DNA of 64,000 nt, from contig JAAWDM010000046.1 of NCBI GenBank assembly GCA_022793795.1, forward strand, positions 1 through 64,000, read 5' to 3'. The notes under the pieces are model-generated. The model had not been told where the DNA came from and ran no database searches. It saw nothing but the letters and a program-made list of their open reading frames with translations. A program made the translations under genes and the position numbers. Each line of letters starts with the position of its first letter. Position 1 is the first letter of the stretch. Positions 35,927 through 44,473 of the stretch are shown in pieces. The stretch comes from Bacillota bacterium (GTDB lineage: Bacteria > Bacillota > Clostridia > Peptostreptococcales > Anaerovoracaceae).

Positions 35927-38290
35927 ATGGTATCGGATAGAATTTCCAGGTTAGTTGATAAGGCTCGGGATACGACCCCTACTGTATGTTTAGATCGAGC
36001 AAGATTGGTAACAGAATTTTGCAAAAAACCGTCCATAGAGCCTTTCTTGCTCAGAAGAGCAAAGATGTTTCAGTATGTGTTAGAAAACAAGAAAATTTTT
36101 ATAGATGAGGACTGGCTAATGGCTGGTCACACCACGTCCCGTTTGAGAGCCGTCAACATATTTCCTGAAATGTCAGGATGGCTCAGAGAGGAATGGGATA
36201 TTTTGGATAAGCGGAAGTTTGATAATTTTCAGTTTGCTTCTCCGGAAGAAAAAAAGGAACTGGCAGAAATTTTAGAGGAATGGGAAGGCCAGACTTTTGA
36301 AGATTTAACAGCAGCCCAATATAATGAACAGGAACTGGAGGCCTTAGAGGTGGGTGTAATGACCAAGGGCGTCTCCAAGCAGTCTACCATGTGTATGAAC
36401 GCCGATTATCCTGAAATCGTAAAGGTTGGGTATCGTCATTATATCCACCAGTGTAAGAAAAGGCTGGAAGATCTGGAAACAGAAGAGATGACCCTAGAAA
36501 AGATGAATCGGAAATATACCTGGCAGGCCATGATCATCGCCATGGAGGCAGTTATCAATTTTGCACATAGATATGCTGATCTAGCTGAAGAGATGGCTGC
36601 CCAATGTAAGGATGAAAAGAGAAAAGCAGAGCTTTTGACCATGGCTGCTGATTGTAGAGTGGTTCCTGAAAATCCACCGCAGACATTTCAACAGGTTTTA
36701 CAGCTTGTGCTTTTTACCCAATGCGCTTTTATGATTGAAAACAATGGATATCATCATCCAATCGGCAGACTAGATCAGTATCTGTATCCGTTCTACGAAA
36801 AGGCGCTGGCTGATGGACAGTCTAAAGAGTTTCTAACAGATCTGCTCCATGAATTTAAGCTACGATTTGAAGAAATGTGGTATCTGCGAAGTGCAGGCGA
36901 AGCAGAGGCGTATCCAGGCTGTGCGTTATATATCCATATTGTTTTAGGCGGTGTGAAAGCAGATGGGACAGATGCTTGTAATGATTTGACACGGCTGATT
37001 CTGCGGGGAATGGAAGATTTACAGACAAAAGAACCGTGCGTTTCCTTCCGCTATCACGAAAGTGTGGATGAAGAGACCTTCCGCCTTGCAGTGAAGGTTG
37101 CCTTAAACGGTGATAGCCATCCAGCATTCTTTAACGATGGAGCCAATGTCATTAGCCTGCAAGAGCTGGGGTTCAGCTTGGAAGAGGCCAGGGATTACAG
37201 CCTTGTGGGCTGTACAGAGGCCATTGTGGCAGGAAAATCGGATTATCAGTCCAATACAGGCTTCTTTAATACGCTTAAGGTCTTTGAACTTGCTTTAAAC
37301 GATGGCAGAGATCCGGTTACAGGCAGGCAGATCGGGCCTCATACAGGTCAGGGTAGAGAATTTACCTCTATGGAACAGATCAAAGAAGCCTATCTGATTC
37401 AGCAGGAATATTTTGTGAAGATGTTTGTTAGAATGTTCGACAAGGTGGTATCCTGTCATGCATATGCATGTCCCACTATTACTGGTTCCTGTTTTGTAGA
37501 AGGTTGCATTGAAAATGGGACGATCATGCAGCAGGCAGGATGTCCGCATCGCTGGGGCGCCTTCGGTGTGACGGGACTGGCAAACCTTGTAGATTCTCTT
37601 GCAGCCATTGAGGAGTGTGTATTTAATAAGAAATACTTGACCATGGACCAGCTGATGGATCTACTTGAAACTAATTTTGAGGGTAGAGAAGAAATGCGGC
37701 AGATGCTCATAAATAGAGCTCCAAAGTATGGAAACGATATTGAGCAGGTTGATAAATACACAGAATTTGTGGCAGCATCTATTAACCGTGAGGCTAAGAA
37801 GTATCGTGACGCTCGTGGAGGAGAATTTGATATCGTATTTGCAACCCAGTCCTATAATATGGTTCTTGGCAAAATCATCGGGGCTACGCCAGACGGGCGG
37901 AAGGCCTTTACGCCAGTGGCAGATAATGCGTCTCCGATGATCGGTATGGATGTCAATGGGCCAACAGCTGTAGTAAAGTCTGTGAATTCTGGAAAGAGAT
38001 GCAATGCTCAGGGAGGCTATTTATTGAACCAGAGATTTGACCCTCATATCATCAAGGGAGAGAAGGGAATCGATATTTTGGAGACGGTTCTTCGAGCTCA
38101 CTTTGGATACGAAGGGGAGCATATGCAAATCAATGTGGTAGACAATGAAACCCTAAGGGACGCACAGGTTCATCCAGAGAATTACCGTAATTTGTTGGTA
38201 CGTGTTGCTGGCTATTCAGCATTTTTCGTGGATTTGGAAAAGAGTATCCAGGAAAATATCATTGAAAGAACAATTCAAAAAAACATATAG
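35927..38290 (+). CDS. glycyl radical enzyme 1, HypD/HplG-type eliminase
   Basis: The 787-residue protein has the length of hydroxyproline glycyl radical enzymes. The active-site loop is VGCTEA (Cys429, with Glu431 placed as the general base of eliminases). The radical glycine is Gly762 in VRVAGYSAFF. It lacks the CC pair of pyruvate formate-lyase. With OrtAB and a proline-racemase-family epimerase in the same module, it or its paralogue is a good candidate for trans-4-hydroxy-D-proline C-N lyase (HplG), making 2-amino-4-ketopentanoate. GGAGGATGAGAG precedes the ATG. Confidence 0.88.
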   Translation: MVSDRISRLVDKARDTTPTVCLDRARLVTEFCKKPSIEPFLLRRAKMFQYVLENKKIFIDEDWLMAGHTTSRLRAVNIFPEMSGWLREEWDILDKRKFDNFQFASPEEKKELAEILEEWEGQTFEDLTAAQYNEQELEALEVGVMTKGVSKQSTMCMNADYPEIVKVGYRHYIHQCKKRLEDLETEEMTLEKMNRKYTWQAMIIAMEAVINFAHRYADLAEEMAAQCKDEKRKAELLTMAADCRVVPENPPQTFQQVLQLVLFTQCAFMIENNGYHHPIGRLDQYLYPFYEKALADGQSKEFLTDLLHEFKLRFEEMWYLRSAGEAEAYPGCALYIHIVLGGVKADGTDACNDLTRLILRGMEDLQTKEPCVSFRYHESVDEETFRLAVKVALNGDSHPAFFNDGANVISLQELGFSLEEARDYSLVGCTEAIVAGKSDYQSNTGFFNTLKVFELALNDGRDPVTGRQIGPHTGQGREFTSMEQIKEAYLIQQEYFVKMFVRMFDKVVSCHAYACPTITGSCFVEGCIENGTIMQQAGCPHRWGAFGVTGLANLVDSLAAIEECVFNKKYLTMDQLMDLLETNFEGREEMRQMLINRAPKYGNDIEQVDKYTEFVAASINREAKKYRDARGGEFDIVFATQSYNMVLGKIIGATPDGRKAFTPVADNASPMIGMDVNGPTAVVKSVNSGKRCNAQGGYLLNQRFDPHIIKGEKGIDILETVLRAHFGYEGEHMQINVVDNETLRDAQVHPENYRNLLVRVAGYSAFFVDLEKSIQENIIERTIQKNI

Positions 38291-38320
38291 GGCAGTCAAG
38301 TAGCGTAAGGAGGAATGGGG

Positions 38321-39061
38321 ATGTTATTAGAAAATAAAAAGGTCTTAATTACAGGAGCTGGCCGCGGCATCGGTCGCCAGACTGCTATAGATATGGCTAA
38401 GGCAGGCGCGATCATACTGGGAGTAGGCCGCACGCAAGCGCCTCTTGATGAAATGGCTAGCAAGGTAAAGGAACTAGGGGGCAGGGTGTATACCGCCACA
38501 ATGGATGTCGCTGATTATGAGGATTCGAAACGGGTCATCAATGGTCTGGCAGATGAAGCGGGCGGCATTGATATACTAGTCAACTGTGCAGCGATTTTTG
38601 AGGAGGCATTTTTTATAGATATGACGCCGCAGCAATGGCAGCGGACGGTTTCCATTGACTTAGACGGTGTGTATCATGTTACCCACGTGACCCTGCCATA
38701 TTTGATAAAGGCCAGAGGAGCGGTGGTAAATGTGGTTTCTCAGGATGCGTTTTATGGTTGTCCAGGATATAGCCACTATGCAGCCTGCAAGGCGGCAGTG
38801 GTCGGTCTAACCCGAACTCTTGCAAAAGAGCTGGGACCTGACGGTGTTCGTCTCAACTGCGTTGCGCCAGGTATTACGGAGACAGAGATGACTAAGGATA
38901 GAATTGCCACAGGGAAAGAAGGCTATCTAGAGAAATTGCCGGTAGGGCATATCGGTCAGCCAGAGGAGATTGCCAGCGCCATCGTGTACCTGGCGTCCCC
39001 AAAGGCAAGCTATATTACAGGCCAGGTTATTCACGCCAATGGAGGCATGTATCTGGGATAG
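38321..39061 (+). CDS. short-chain dehydrogenase/reductase (SDR)
   Basis: The 246-residue classical SDR has the cofactor motif TGAGRGIG (about 11-18), NCAA in place of NNAG, and catalytic YSHYAACK (about 150). The ATG at 38321 follows AAGGAGG at proper distance; the ATG at 38315 is too close. It lies between two glycyl radical enzyme genes. Mammalian BDH2, also an SDR, reduces 4-oxo-L-proline to cis-4-hydroxy-L-proline, so a role in forming or removing the substrate epimer is plausible but unproven. Confidence 0.85.
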   Translation: MLLENKKVLITGAGRGIGRQTAIDMAKAGAIILGVGRTQAPLDEMASKVKELGGRVYTATMDVADYEDSKRVINGLADEAGGIDILVNCAAIFEEAFFIDMTPQQWQRTVSIDLDGVYHVTHVTLPYLIKARGAVVNVVSQDAFYGCPGYSHYAACKAAVVGLTRTLAKELGPDGVRLNCVAPGITETEMTKDRIATGKEGYLEKLPVGHIGQPEEIASAIVYLASPKASYITGQVIHANGGMYLG

Positions 39062-39103
39062 TGTGTAATTCTTTATATCATGCACCGCTATCAGTGTTTA
39101 TAA

Positions 39104-39180
39104 AAATACACATGGTTTAACGGAAATGACAGATATATGACATATTCTGCAAAACAAAGAGAGTTATGCCATGTGTATTT
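39104..39180. repeat. inverted repeat ahead of the activase promoter
   Basis: AAATACACATGG (39104-39115) and CCATGTGTATTT (39169-39180) are perfect inverse copies 53 bp apart, ending 48 bp upstream of the -24/-12 promoter. Position and shared TACACA core with the palindrome at 30070-30084 make them candidate activator half-sites. The rest of the 243-bp gap has no gene. Confidence 0.55.
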
Positions 39181-39227
39181 CTGCTAAAAGAGAAGGGATT
39201 TACGGGTTTTTCACCAAGACATAATGA

Positions 39228-39243
39228 TTGGCATAAAATTTGC
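39228..39243 (+). promoter_or_regulatory. sigma-54 promoter of activase and GRE 2
   Basis: TTGGCAT-AAAAT-TTGC, 62 bp before the activase start codon. Confidence 0.85.
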
Positions 39244-39304
39244 GAAATAATTATTGATATAGTAGTAAAACAAGTCAGAATTAAACGATATAGGAGGAAC
39301 ATGG

Positions 39305-40234
39305 ATGATATTCAATATCCAAAAATGTTCGATTCATGACGGGGAAGGCCTTCGGACGCTGGTATTCTTTAAAGGATGTCCTTTAAGATGTCCATGGTGT
39401 GCTAACCCAGAATCCCAGTCCTATGGGTGTGATATTACAGAGTATCCGTCGAAATGTGTGGGATGTGGCTTATGTATGGATAACTGTCCACAAAAGGCCA
39501 TCAGCAGAGCAGATGGACACATTGATAGGAACCTTTGTATAGCCGGATGTACGGCATGTACAGATATATGCTATGCAGAAGCCAAGAGAAGTGTGGGAAA
39601 AGATTACACCATAGAGGAGCTGTTTCATGAAATTAAAAAGGATAAGGTATTTTATGATATAAAAGGCGGCGGCGTAACCTTTTCTGGAGGGGAACCACTG
39701 ACTTACGGAAACTATCTGGAGCAGATCGCTAAAAAATGTAAAGAAAACAGAATCAATGTTTGCATTGAAAGCTGCGGGTACAGCGATTTCCAGTCCTTTG
39801 AAGGGGCTCTGGCCTATATTGATGCCATGTTCATAGACGTAAAACTGATAGACTCTAAGAGACATAAAGAAATTACCGGATTTGGAAATGAGCTGATTTT
39901 AACCAATATTAAAAGAATTTCCGAATATGGAATTCCCATTACCATCAGAACACCGGTTGTACCTGGATATACCGACTCACCAGAAAACATTGTAGGAATT
40001 GCTCAGTTTGTTAAGAGTCTACCAACGGTTAGAGAGTATGAACTTTTGGTATATCACAATTTGGGTGAATCCAAGTATAACGCCATGGGAAAACCTTATG
40101 CTTTGAAGGGGATCAAACCGCCATCAGATGAACAGATGCTCGGGCTGACGAAACTTGCCAATAACATTTTAAATCCACACGGAAAACAGTGTTTTTATAT
40201 GAAGGATAACAAAAAGGAGGGAATTACATGTTAA
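39305..40234 (+). CDS. glycyl radical enzyme activating enzyme (radical SAM)
   Basis: The 309-residue protein installs the glycyl radical. The radical SAM cluster is CPLRCPWC (Cys-x3-Cys-x2-Cys, about 29-36). Two further cysteine groups, CVGCGLCMDNC and CTACTDIC, bind accessory [4Fe-4S] clusters as in most non-PFL activases. GGEP (in FSGGEPL) is the SAM-binding motif. GGAGG precedes the ATG. It overlaps GRE 2 by seven bases and is the only activase in the window, so it may serve both GRE 1 and GRE 2. Confidence 0.93.
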   Translation: MIFNIQKCSIHDGEGLRTLVFFKGCPLRCPWCANPESQSYGCDITEYPSKCVGCGLCMDNCPQKAISRADGHIDRNLCIAGCTACTDICYAEAKRSVGKDYTIEELFHEIKKDKVFYDIKGGGVTFSGGEPLTYGNYLEQIAKKCKENRINVCIESCGYSDFQSFEGALAYIDAMFIDVKLIDSKRHKEITGFGNELILTNIKRISEYGIPITIRTPVVPGYTDSPENIVGIAQFVKSLPTVREYELLVYHNLGESKYNAMGKPYALKGIKPPSDEQMLGLTKLANNILNPHGKQCFYMKDNKKEGITC

Positions 40235-42585
40235 CACCTAGAATTATAAGATTGAATGATAAGGTCAGGAATACAGAACCGACCATTGACCTGGATAGAG
40301 CGAAACTGATCACAGAGTTTTACAGTCAGCCGTCCATGGACAATTATATTTTGCGGAGGGCAAAGGCATTTCAATACTTTCTCGAGAATAAGAAAATATT
40401 TATTGATGAGGATTCACAGATTGCTGGTCATGCGGGCGACCGGATTCAGGCGGTTCCATTGCATCCGGATGTGACCAAATGGCTGTATGATGATTTCGAT
40501 ACGCTGGATAAAAGAGTGTCCGACCATATTTCCTTTAGAAGTGAAGAGGAGAGAGAGGAACTCCGGGAGCTGGTGGGAAGATGGCAAGGGAATACCTTTG
40601 GGGATTTTGCTGCCGATTTGGAAGAGGACGATGTAAAGGATATGATTGATGCTTTGGTATTTACCCATGGCGTTTCCAATCAGTCCACCATGAACCATAC
40701 GCCGGACTATGACAGCTTAATAAAGTATGGATATCGCCACTATATCGATGAATGTAAGGAAAAACTGGCAAACCATGTATGCAATGATGTGTATGACATG
40801 GAGCAGAGAATCACATGGCAGGCTATGATTATCGTCATGGAAGCCATCATAACCTTTGCCCATCGTTATGCAGATTTGGCTGAAATGCAGGCAGCGGAGT
40901 GCAAGGATGAAAAGCGAAAAGCAGAACTTCTGGCTATGGCTCAGTGCTGTAGAACCGTTCCGGAATATGCTCCAAAGACTTTCCTGCAGGGCGTGCAGCT
41001 GGTATGGTTTACCCACCTGGCCATCGTGTTAGAGGCGGTTGGTGGCGACCATTGCTTAGGCCGCTTCGATCAGTACATGTATCCTTTCTTTGAAAAGGAG
41101 ACGGCAGAGGGAAAAGATGAAATCTATTTCCAGGAGTTGATTCATGAGTTTAAGCTGAAAATTGCTGAGCTGTGGAACATTCGTCAATACAAGGAATCTA
41201 TTGCTGTACCGGGCTGTCCTCTGTGGATGCATGTTATGCTGGGCGGTGTAAAGGAGAACGGTAAGGATGCATGTAATGAATTGACCAATGTGTTTCTCCG
41301 CTGCCTGTTGGATTTACAGACTGATGAGCCTTGTATCTCCTTCCGATTCCATCCAAATGTCAATGAAGAGACTTTCCGTCTTGCTATTAGAGCAGCCAGG
41401 GATACTGGCGGACATCCAGCCTTCTATAACGATACCGCTGCCATCACCTATTTGCTTAGCTTAGGTTTTACCCTAAAGGAAGCAAGAAACTGGGGCATTT
41501 GCGGATGTATTGAGCCGATTGTCTGCGGCATTACCGACTTCCAGACCAATTCGGGCAACTTCAATGTCAATAAGATTCTGGAAATCACTCTTCATAACGG
41601 CTATGACCCTGTGTCAAAAAAGCAGCTGGGTATTAAAACCGGAGATGTGAAGGATTTTACCTGCATTGAGGATATTATGAAAGCCTTTGAAGCACAGCTT
41701 GATTTCTTCATGGAAAAGTTTATTAAGATGGCCAATACCACCCTGGCAGGTCATGCGTTCACTCTGCCAACCATCACAGCTTCCTGCTTCTCTGTGGGTT
41801 GTATTGAAAAGGGTAAGATGCTGCAGCAGAAGGGTTCGGATCACCATTATACTACCGTGTCCATCGCCAGCATGGCAAACCTGATTGATTCCTTCGCAGC
41901 CATGGAAGAATGTGTATTCAATAAAAAGTATCTGAATATGGAAGATCTGCTTCATCTAATGGATACTAATTTTGAGGGCAACGAGAATATGCGCCAGCTT
42001 CTCATCAACAAAGCGCCTAAGTTTGGAAATAATATCGAGCAGGCTGACAAGTATGGTGAATGGTTTGTAGATACCATCGACCGTTCTATGAAGCGGTTTA
42101 AGGATGCTCATGGCGGCCAGTGGACCAGCCTCCACGCTACGGTTGTATATAATGTGGCCATGGGTAAGACAGTAGGCGCTATGCCGGATGGCAGATTGGC
42201 CTTCTCGCCTTTGGCAGACAATGCATCCCCTATGATCGGCATGGATGTCAATGGGCCGACTGCTGTGGTTAACTCCCTTGCAGCCTGTGATGAAATGATT
42301 CCTCAAAGCGGCATGTTGCTTAACCAAAGATTCGACCCTACTATTGCAGCTGGTGAAAAGGGCATCGACATCATTGAAAGCGTATTTCGTGCCCACTTCG
42401 CTCAGGGAGGCTATCACGTCCAGATCAATGTGCTGGATGATGAAACCCTTTTGGCAGCTCAAAAGGAGCCGGATAAGTATAAAAATATTATCGTTCGTGT
42501 AGCAGGTTATTCAGCCTATTTCGTGGAACTGGGCAAGGAAATTCAGGATAATATCATTCAGAGAACCATTCAAAAGGGATTGTAA
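40228..42585 (+). CDS. glycyl radical enzyme 2, HypD/HplG-type eliminase
   Basis: The 785-residue paralogue of GRE 1 is colinear with it throughout (both begin with RIIRLNDKVR or a close variant and end with ERTIQK or QRTIQK). The active-site loop is CGCIEP (Cys427, Glu429) and the radical glycine is Gly760 in VRVAGYSAYF. It is translationally coupled to the activase. Substrate-pocket differences between the paralogues suggest different hydroxyproline isomers or another cyclic amine; which one opens trans-4-hydroxy-D-proline cannot be told here. A terminator follows. Confidence 0.88.
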   Translation: MLTPRIIRLNDKVRNTEPTIDLDRAKLITEFYSQPSMDNYILRRAKAFQYFLENKKIFIDEDSQIAGHAGDRIQAVPLHPDVTKWLYDDFDTLDKRVSDHISFRSEEEREELRELVGRWQGNTFGDFAADLEEDDVKDMIDALVFTHGVSNQSTMNHTPDYDSLIKYGYRHYIDECKEKLANHVCNDVYDMEQRITWQAMIIVMEAIITFAHRYADLAEMQAAECKDEKRKAELLAMAQCCRTVPEYAPKTFLQGVQLVWFTHLAIVLEAVGGDHCLGRFDQYMYPFFEKETAEGKDEIYFQELIHEFKLKIAELWNIRQYKESIAVPGCPLWMHVMLGGVKENGKDACNELTNVFLRCLLDLQTDEPCISFRFHPNVNEETFRLAIRAARDTGGHPAFYNDTAAITYLLSLGFTLKEARNWGICGCIEPIVCGITDFQTNSGNFNVNKILEITLHNGYDPVSKKQLGIKTGDVKDFTCIEDIMKAFEAQLDFFMEKFIKMANTTLAGHAFTLPTITASCFSVGCIEKGKMLQQKGSDHHYTTVSIASMANLIDSFAAMEECVFNKKYLNMEDLLHLMDTNFEGNENMRQLLINKAPKFGNNIEQADKYGEWFVDTIDRSMKRFKDAHGGQWTSLHATVVYNVAMGKTVGAMPDGRLAFSPLADNASPMIGMDVNGPTAVVNSLAACDEMIPQSGMLLNQRFDPTIAAGEKGIDIIESVFRAHFAQGGYHVQINVLDDETLLAAQKEPDKYKNIIVRVAGYSAYFVELGKEIQDNIIQRTIQKGL

Positions 42586-42605: not shown

Positions 42606-42638
42606 ACACAGCCAGTTAAGCGCTGGCTGTGTCTTTTT
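42606..42638. terminator. terminator shared by GRE 2 and RNase HI
   Basis: CACAGCCAG pairs with CTGGCTGTG, followed by TCTTTTTCT. The hairpin overlaps the last codons and stop of the convergent RNase HI gene. Confidence 0.8.
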
Positions 42639-43188
42639 CTGTATTTTCCCTCGCTTCCGTAATGCCCAGATTTGCCAATTCATCCACCAGGTTGTTCATC
42701 TTCGTCACATACTGGAAGTCCTCAAAACTGAAGGCAGCTCCGTTCCATTGGACAAATTTTTCATAGAGAGCATTGAAGTTGGTGGATTTGCTGTTAAGAT
42801 TTACATGACCTTTGACCCGAAAGAAGGTTACGTTATGCTGGCGTACCAGAGCTAGAAGCTCCTTCCAAAGCTCTTGATTTTCTACGGATTTGCGGGCTGC
42901 ATTTCTCCATTTGTTTTGCTCCCAGGATTCGTACCAACGCTCACGAAAACAGTTGGCCACATAGGCGCTGTCAGTGAATACTTCAATAGTTTGGCCTGGC
43001 TGCTTCAGGGCGCGGAAAGCCTGGATGACAGCAGTAAGCTCCATTCGATTGTTGGTGGTGTTGGCCTCTCCACCGTAAAGTTCTTTTCTATGTTCACCAA
43101 ATTCTAAGACTGCGCCCCAGCCGCCGAAATTAATATCGTTTTGGTTACCGGCACAGCCGCCGTCTGTATAGATTCTCAGAATAGACAT
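42616..43188 (-). CDS. rnhA: ribonuclease HI
   Basis: The 190-residue enzyme cuts the RNA strand of RNA-DNA hybrids. The acidic metal-binding residues are visible in IYTDGG (Asp9), NRMELTA (about Glu50), VFTDSAYV (about Asp73) and NNLVDELAN (about Asp173). An insertion at about 130-165 makes it longer than E. coli RNase HI. It is a single gene convergent with the GRE operon. Confidence 0.92.
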   Translation of the reverse strand: MSILRIYTDGGCAGNQNDINFGGWGAVLEFGEHRKELYGGEANTTNNRMELTAVIQAFRALKQPGQTIEVFTDSAYVANCFRERWYESWEQNKWRNAARKSVENQELWKELLALVRQHNVTFFRVKGHVNLNSKSTNFNALYEKFVQWNGAAFSFEDFQYVTKMNNLVDELANLGITEARENTEKDTASA

Positions 43189-43350
43189 GAAATACTCCTT
43201 TCGATTTTTGTGCTGTCTGCTTCTGCATCTTGCATATGTATATTATGGACTAATTTCTACTTTTTTACAACGAAAAATTGTTTTCAATTTTCTGTGCCAA
43301 ATGGGACAAGCCGTGGTATACTTAAAGGTAGCACCACTTGGGATCCTGAA

Positions 43351-43608
43351 ATGTTGTACAGAACCGAATATTTTTTAATTTTGTACAACATTTTAGCACC
43401 TTTTCCCTTTGCAAAGTCCGTTAATTAGGGTGGTTGTTGGCTGTTTGGGTTCATTTCGCAATTTTAGCCAACAAAAAGGTTAAAAAATGTTGGCTATTGT
43501 TTCTTTTTGTTTTCAAAAAGCCAACATTGAGGTCACTTTGAACGGATTTTATGGAGAAAATGGCAGATTTGTTGGTTAATTTTATGATTTTTTGCCCAAA
43601 AGCCAACA
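43351..43608. repeat. four inverted-repeat elements with fixed 31-bp half-site spacing
   Basis: In the 465-bp gap between rnhA and walJ there are four dyads. The half-sites start at 43352/43383, 43435/43466, 43488/43519 and 43570/43601, each exactly 31 bp apart. Three use TGTTGGCT (or TGTTGGTT) with AGCCAACA; the first uses TGTTGTAC with GTACAACA. Outer bases co-vary (T-A in the second, A-T in the third). This suggests either a protein binding half-sites three helical turns apart or repeated RNA hairpins. No gene or promoter is clear here. Confidence 0.75.
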
Positions 43609-43654
43609 ACTAGATGATTCCCACATGGATATGTAAAAAATGGGAGGCATTGGT

Positions 43655-44473
43655 TTGACCTTAGGATTTTGTTCATTTGCCAGCAGCAGTTCAGGAAACA
43701 GTTATTTGATAAAAAGTGAAACTACCAGCCTTTTGGTGGATGTGGGAATCAGCGCCGCTCAGATTATGAGCCGTTTGGCGGGCCTGGAAATGGAGGCCCA
43801 GGATATCGACGGAGTGCTTTTGACCCATGAACATATGGACCATGTAAAGAGCGTTTCTGCCTTTCACAAAAAAGCGCCCAAAGCCCATTTCGTAACATCA
43901 GAGGGAACCTTCTGCGCCTTGGAGGAGCGAGTACAGAAGGCGGTGGCAGCCAATTTAACTGTCATAGAAGGGAAGGGGCAGTTTTTTATTGGAGATATTT
44001 TGGTCACTCATTTCAGTCTTTCTCACGATGCGGCGGAGCCTATGGCCTATGCCTTTGAAAAGGATGGAAAGAAGGTTGCGGTTGTCACGGACACAGGGGT
44101 GATCACTGAGGAAATCTTTGAGGCTGTGGCTAATGCAGATATTCTGGCCCTTGAGGCAAACCATGAAGAAAATATTTTACTCTATGGCAGATATCCCTAT
44201 CAGGTGAAGCGGCGGATTCTCAGCGATAGAGGCCATCTGTCCAACGAGGCTGCGGGGAACTGTCTGACGCGAATATTGAAACGGCTGCGGGATGGAGGCA
44301 GTGAAAAGGTTCCCAGGGTCTATCTGGCCCATTTGAGCAAGGAGAATAATACGCCTCAGCAGGCCTTTCTCACAGTACGAAATGTATTGGAGGAGCAGGA
44401 TTTTTACATAGGAAAAGATATAACCCTGGAGGTTATTACAGCCGATGACCCCATGGGACTTGCAGTGATTTAG
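43655..44473 (+). CDS. walJ: MBL-fold hydrolase, WalJ/YycJ family
   Basis: The 272-residue metallo-beta-lactamase-fold protein has FCSFASSSSGNSYLI at the start and the metal motif LLTHEHMDH (about 60), typical of YycJ/WalJ, a putative exonuclease linked to the WalRK cell-wall system in Firmicutes. I chose the TTG at 43655, seven bases after GGGAGG; the ATG at 43640 is inside the ribosome-site region. No walRK lies here. It is followed 16 bp later by rlmH, a neighbourhood common in Firmicutes. Confidence 0.85.
   Translation: MTLGFCSFASSSSGNSYLIKSETTSLLVDVGISAAQIMSRLAGLEMEAQDIDGVLLTHEHMDHVKSVSAFHKKAPKAHFVTSEGTFCALEERVQKAVAANLTVIEGKGQFFIGDILVTHFSLSHDAAEPMAYAFEKDGKKVAVVTDTGVITEEIFEAVANADILALEANHEENILLYGRYPYQVKRRILSDRGHLSNEAAGNCLTRILKRLRDGGSEKVPRVYLAHLSKENNTPQQAFLTVRNVLEEQDFYIGKDITLEVITADDPMGLAVI

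Follow-up and report, generated by a model that had tools for sequence, protein, structure and literature searches.

The locus and its four dyads

The window analysed here is a stretch of 64,000 bp from a Bacillota bacterium of the family Anaerovoracaceae, and it contains, between two divergent genes, an element of 257 bp (43352..43608) built from inverted half-sites. The upstream gene on the minus strand is rnhA (42616..43188), encoding ribonuclease HI. The downstream gene on the plus strand is walJ (43640..44473), encoding a WalJ/YycJ-like metallo-beta-lactamase-fold hydrolase, a name based on gene neighbourhood and fold; translation probably starts in fact at a TTG near 43653. A probable walJ promoter (43294..43322, plus strand; GTGCCA-17-TATACT with an extended -10 TG) lies directly upstream of the element. 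Farther away, the region 35927-42585 of the window contains two PFL2/hydroxyproline dehydratase-type glycyl radical enzyme genes with activase and short-chain dehydrogenase genes between them; the second of these enzymes falls short of the curated cut-offs for the named substrate families.

Direct reading of the sequence shows eight half-sites forming four dyads of the pattern TGTTGnnn-N23-nnnCAACA, at 43352-43390, 43435-43473, 43488-43526 and 43570-43608. The outer, terminal dyads are D1 (43352..43390; TGTTGTAC-N23-GTACAACA, half-sites at 43352 and 43383, no mismatch) and D4 (43570..43608; TGTTGGTT-N23-AGCCAACA, half-sites at 43570 and 43601, one mismatch), the symmetry of D4 being imperfect by one base, a T-G pair on one strand. 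The inner dyads D2 (43435..43473; half-sites at 43435 and 43466) and D3 (43488..43526; half-sites at 43488 and 43519) both read TGTTGGCT-N23-AGCCAACA. Linker 1 (43391..43434, 44 bp) contains TCCCTTTGCAAA (43404-43415), a segment between D1 and D2 that is common across the family described below. The central linker (43474..43487, 14 bp) is the centre of mirror symmetry of the element, and linker 3 (43527..43569), by the same reading, has 43 bp. The resulting steps, D1-83-D2-53-D3-82-D4, are mirror-symmetric.

Several of these properties had been remarked on in a first-pass annotation. The distance of 31 bp between the half-sites of each dyad was found on re-reading to be exact in 4/4. The dyads were also described as unevenly spaced, which is true of the steps 83, 53 and 82; the spacing is nevertheless not arbitrary, being restricted in this genome to 52-53, 82-84 and 93-94 bp. 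Finally, the proposed co-variation of core pairs is seen in dyads 1-3 of the window copy, but does not extend to many other copies, which have unlike cores within a dyad (GGCT/GTAC; GGCT/GTCT).

Copies in the same genome

The genome to which the window belongs (2.48 Mb, 58 contigs) was analysed by pattern searches and through the stretches around the matches. The exact pattern TGTTG-N29-CAACA gave 49 matches and its reversed control none; the GGCT-core dyad TGTTGGCT-N23-AGCCAACA, with up to one mismatch allowed, gave 15, again with none for the control. A spacing control with 30 Ns instead of 29 returned two matches, both genuine members of the family that are one base longer. These counts demonstrate that the dyad signal is real and far above chance. 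The exact pattern occurs 0, 1, 0 and 2 times in four genomes of the same genus, and the GGCT-core dyad (at most one mismatch) yielded a single chance-like match among 79 relatives.

Clusters of one to four dyads are present at more than 50 places in the genome. The segment ACTCCCTTTGCAAAA, located between the first and second dyads, occurs in 20 exact copies, and its presence in the clusters identifies them as copies of a single dispersed repeat family. All but one of the 53 loci checked are intergenic; the flanking genes are co-directional in 21 cases, convergent in 19, divergent in 10 and undetermined in 2, and the single flagged overlap is with an open reading frame starting within the gap. 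Elements start with TGTTG and finish with CAACA, D1 and D4 are inverted with respect to each other, and in the copy at C50:58924 units a-b and e-f are alike. Subfamilies can be told apart by their cores, namely GGCT/GTAC, GTAC/GTCA, GTAT/GTAG and GACA/GACT. Lengths other than that of a full GACT element occur, as at C56:27268 (257 bp) and C49:21381 (269 bp), and there are also shortened copies and solo 39-bp dyads, for example at C6:2130, C3:13694 and C47:55177.

The GACT subfamily, with steps of about 94, 53 and 93 bp, was examined by alignment. All 14 of the 14 aligned copies are 278-280 bp long, although their mean identity is 73% and the minimum 63%. Each pair differs on average by 74.8 substitutions versus 1.33 gap columns, indicating that length is held while the sequence drifts. 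Conservation is highest in the half-sites and in a pair of CCCTTTG/CAAAGGG segments. Neither the 257-bp window copy nor the 278-280-bp GACT subfamily contains a conserved open reading frame. The genome search for further copies that the first-pass annotation had suggested showed the 31-bp spacing to be held in additional copies. The window dyads make up a single full-length copy of a non-coding repeat that is dispersed and has been amplified in this lineage, MITE/BIME-like in kind.

Two other kinds of repeat were noticed in the same genome. One, GGCTGTCGCCnTAACGG...CCGTTAnGGCGACAGCC, is another dispersed palindrome, some 41 bp long, found for example at C8:5376-5416, C6:17289-17329, C42:26628-26668 and C4:9955-9995; it has the compensatory variants GGCTGGCGC and GGGAGACGCC, often adjoins dyad elements and looks like a repeated terminator-type hairpin. 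The other consists of tandem direct repeats with a period of 36 bp containing GCCTGTCGCTCCATCGG, at C16:9-169 and C36:62794-62918.

Occurrence in related genomes

Pairs of adjacent dyads were sought across 85,000 species genomes with a pattern that left the core bases free. It matched 53 stretches, many of which belong to elements present in multiple copies in a small number of Clostridia genomes. The heaviest carrier is CALWNX (E40__bin253), with 22 stretches; further multi-copy carriers are JAETTD (S35), JALFXR, CAKMLH and CALZOZ, and JAFQBD has one stretch. Single matches in distant phyla are about as numerous as expected by chance. The WalJ proteins of CAKMLH, JAETTD, CALZOZ and JALFXR are 55-57% identical to that of the window, and those of CALWNX and JAFQBD 49% and 47%, compared with 66-69% within the same genus and about 42-48% elsewhere in the family. 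The carriers are therefore mostly moderately close relatives, whereas the same-genus genomes are without arrays. From genome to genome the core bases vary and the steps stay the same, with a GGCT-type half-site, extended to TGTTGGCTTTTTG, recurring in copies from the window's genome, CALWNX and JAETTD.

In the Lachnospiraceae genome CADBXF (RUG14385), two 53-bp tandem arrays have the same half-sites and the same 31/22 spacing with unlike interiors. Intergenic tandem arrays with a period of about 52 bp, GTTG...CAAC dyads and the same spacing were also seen in L125, L136 (Neobacillus), L132 (Trichococcus), L133 (Jeotgalibaca) and L147 (Cerasibacillus); the arrays of these four genera may represent convergence or chance at the level of the pattern. 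At six CALWNX loci (L111, L128, L131, L144, L148 and L151), homology to the element stops at ...CTACAGTCT, and in several copies this end adjoins an apparent intrinsic terminator hairpin of the neighbouring gene, which suggests a preferred landing place. The plasmid and phage collections searched contained no relatives of the element. Three viral-contig matches were rejected as chance pattern matches, being one common sequence that resembles coding DNA. No published description of the repeat was found in the open-access full-text literature searched.

Geometry and helical phase

The general layout is D1-(83 or 94)-D2-53-D3-(83 or 93)-D4, mirror-symmetric about a central linker of 13-14 bp. This linker length was observed in all double dyads but one in seven genomes, and in six genomes 91 of the 99 steps between dyads measure 52-53, 81-84 or 93-94 bp; CALWNX has an additional step of 63-66 bp that is off the helical grid. 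Linker 1, which has 44 bp in the window copy, is replaced in other copies by a 55-bp form, and the 11 bp between the two, both found in more than one genome, correspond to one helical turn. The four independent half-site spacings of 31, 21.5, 52 and 62.5 bp are close to 3, 2, 5 and 6 turns at 10.4 bp per turn, with a mean deviation of 0.024 turn (P of about 0.0003, random spacings equalling the fit in 0.03% of trials), a fit made to four spacing classes only and with a period chosen post hoc within 10.2-10.6. The whole number of turns (2, 3, 5 and 6), the one-turn difference between linkers and the divergent interiors of the dyads support a putative protein-bound DNA array.

Mirror symmetry is also visible in the bases. 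In the E40 set from CALWNX, mirror partners are identical for half-sites c with f in 18/18 cases and for d with e in 9/18. D2 and the reverse complement of D3 have 41% of interior positions in common, versus 26-29% in shuffles, which fits an old inverted duplication better than a maintained hairpin.

The walJ leader

No dyads were found upstream of walJ in the four same-genus genomes, in which the rnhA-walJ neighbourhood is also different. The GTGGTATA motif of the window promoter is present just upstream of walJ in two of these congeners (G002 and G003), where GTGGTATAATA precedes the walJ start by about 40-60 nt. In the window, GTGGTATACT (43313-43322) is followed by the element and this in turn by the start of walJ. 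We infer, as the simplest reading, that the window copy was inserted in the 5' leader of walJ between promoter and start codon. Such an insertion would cause the element to be transcribed together with walJ and would stretch a leader of about 40 nt to one of about 310 nt. Comparison with relatives, which the first-pass annotation had named as a check, went against conservation: the array is missing at walJ in the same-genus genomes, so that neither rnhA nor walJ has in it a conserved operator.

Search for a mobilising enzyme

No target-site duplication was detected in 28 elements, the mean flank match being 0.57 nt versus 0.49 nt in shuffles (p 0.31). Searches for Y1_Tnp and rve and a reading of the sequence between neighbouring dyad clusters of the window's genome revealed no autonomous copy and no transposase or recombinase gene with matching ends; on that reading no pair of clusters was recognised as bounding a gene-bearing element, and none of the open reading frames in between was recognised as a transposase. 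Y1_Tnp (PF01797) is absent from the carriers E40, S35 and RGIG1659 and present in the non-carriers G001 and G004; mobilisation of the REP/RAYT kind was rejected because the distribution of PF01797 does not track carriers. The rve domain likewise does not track carriers, and the TG/CA-ended rve transposases (IS3, IS21, Tn7-like) were rejected because rve has no match in the window's genome. The sole Y1 gene of that genome (C6:189-533) encodes an IS200-like TnpA and is not bounded by dyads; the solo dyad found 1.6 kb from it is separated from it by an unrelated kind of gene.

Possible mechanisms

What could hold the geometry of a repeat while its sequence drifts? The favoured interpretation, to which a probability of roughly 0.55 is assigned, is a MITE/BIME-like dispersed repeat whose half-sites would be bound by a putative multimeric protein, likeliest the transposase or recombinase that mobilises it. 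The half-sites would be contact points for this protein on one face of double-stranded DNA. The protein would read TGTTG and a few subfamily-specific bases and would require a fixed rotational phase. A transposase or recombinase acting in trans, assembling on the element and mobilising it, is the likeliest candidate, and a host architectural protein would be a close second. A more far-reaching proposal, offered tentatively and with the odds against it, is a putative new class of DNA-binding machinery, either a transposase-like multimer or an architectural one, that would read only the 5-bp TGTTG in eight inverted half-sites at set phase; spacing and not sequence would define its site, so that targets would drift nearly freely and cores would be lineage-specific.

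A rival reading, a REP/BIME-like hairpin element forming stem-loops in transcripts or in lagging-strand DNA, is suggested by the window leader, which folds better than its shuffles (z -5.6), by D1, a strong RNA hairpin on the plus strand (-12.6 kcal/mol, z -5.2), and by the small excess in stability of dyads in the window's genome over interior-shuffled controls (mean z -0.65). Stems of 14-18 bp are present in solo or outer dyads at C3:13694, C47:55177, C50:32272 and C56:45866 (10-18 bp with C48:19892 included), compared with pairing over only 5-8 bp around a 23-nt loop in most inner dyads. A number of outer and solo dyads fold into strong hairpins, and the outer dyads may have a hairpin role. 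As an account of the whole family, however, hairpins are improbable. Complementarity of the dyad interiors (positions 9-19) is no higher than chance in either the window's genome or the E40 set, and the covariance energy computed by RNAalifold for the GACT alignment is near zero. The two half-sites of E40 dyads are systematically unlike (GGCT with GTCT), core position 6 being complementary in 14% versus 48% expected, so pairing between the two halves is not the property being preserved. No known RNA family was recognised, no Rfam family matching at gathering score (best E 0.68, a chance miRNA match). Stem-loops also explain neither the helical spacing between dyads nor the 11-bp linker change. 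With generally non-complementary interiors and unlike E40 half-sites, the element reads as protein-bound double-stranded DNA rather than as RNA hairpins.

A different protein-bound reading, possible but on the whole doubtful, and only a little likelier than hairpins, is an architectural or regulatory array of the host, in which the half-sites would bind a nucleoid-associated or bridging protein and the repeat would spread or persist through its use in chromosome organisation or gene insulation, not through mobilisation by that protein. The steps and the helical fit speak for this reading too, as does the almost exclusively intergenic position of the copies, and the RUG14385 arrays, with different interiors at two places, resemble a cooperative array. 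Against it, the arrays are missing from the same-genus genomes, which would be odd for a core host system, cores vary among subfamilies of one genome, and the mixed gene context shows no regulon pattern. A dedicated multi-site operator of rnhA and/or walJ would fit the position of the element between the divergent genes, 32 bp from the annotated walJ open reading frame; it is very improbable, since the same element sits in more than 50 unrelated gene gaps and is lacking upstream of walJ in 4/4 same-genus genomes, and as a private operator of the two genes it is largely refuted. Least plausible of all is a CRISPR-like array or a set of integron attC-like recombination sites. The 37-nt GTTG...CAAC unit does resemble the inverted ends of many CRISPR repeats, but the linkers (13-14, about 44 or about 55 bp) are similar between copies and are not unique spacers of a regular 25-40 bp or so, which rules out a CRISPR array; moreover, the repeats vary by subfamily, match no attC core and are dispersed as single elements, not cassette arrays. 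The interpretation in the first-pass annotation is partly supported: the geometry favours a protein-bound DNA array, tandem RNA hairpins gain little as a general principle, and the operator, if meant as private to rnhA/walJ, does not stand.

Comparison with known repeat systems

MITE families without target-site duplication exist, although a duplication is expected of most MITEs. Like MITEs, the present repeat is short (257-280 bp, within 50-500 bp), non-coding, multi-copy and intergenic, with inverted ends and no transposase gene, and it has shortened and solo 39-bp derivatives; copies of QMITE1 span 39 to 400 bp (PMC10969869). Unlike MITEs, it has no target-site duplication and no autonomous partner was found for it in the searches above, it contains internal dyads besides its ends, all near the helical grid, and it keeps geometry across genomes, not sequence.

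With REP/BIME elements and their RAYT transposases (PMC2817692; PMC3733652) it shares extragenic palindromes of about 39 nt that are often clustered, regularly spaced and mirrored, with covarying cores. Set against the palindrome description of 20-40 nt and extragenic location, the dyads are 39 nt long, intergenic and exact in 49 cases, with a mostly unpaired 23-nt interior. The differences are that no constant GTAG/CGTC tag is present in the flanks of 28 elements, that most dyads are without long stems and combine a fixed 31-bp half-site distance with a free interior, and that the Y1 transposase is missing from the heaviest carrier. Membership of neither the MITE nor the BIME class is assigned, as tests for the duplication, the tag and the RAYT association were negative.

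Pneumococcal BOX and RUP are modular intergenic repeats present in tens of copies in a Firmicute. The present repeat resembles them in these general traits, but its conserved feature is the spacing and not a set of stem-loop modules.

Dispersed intergenic repeats are common and are usually recognised by sequence or by stem-loops. An array that looks like an operator is here in fact a dispersed element, situated in what appears to be a gene's leader. Identity within the genome is 63-73% and the sequence is essentially replaced between related genomes, while length, spacing and phase are fixed; such a family will be missed by repeat finders based on sequence similarity, and its fixed geometry makes the putative protein-DNA assembly directly testable.
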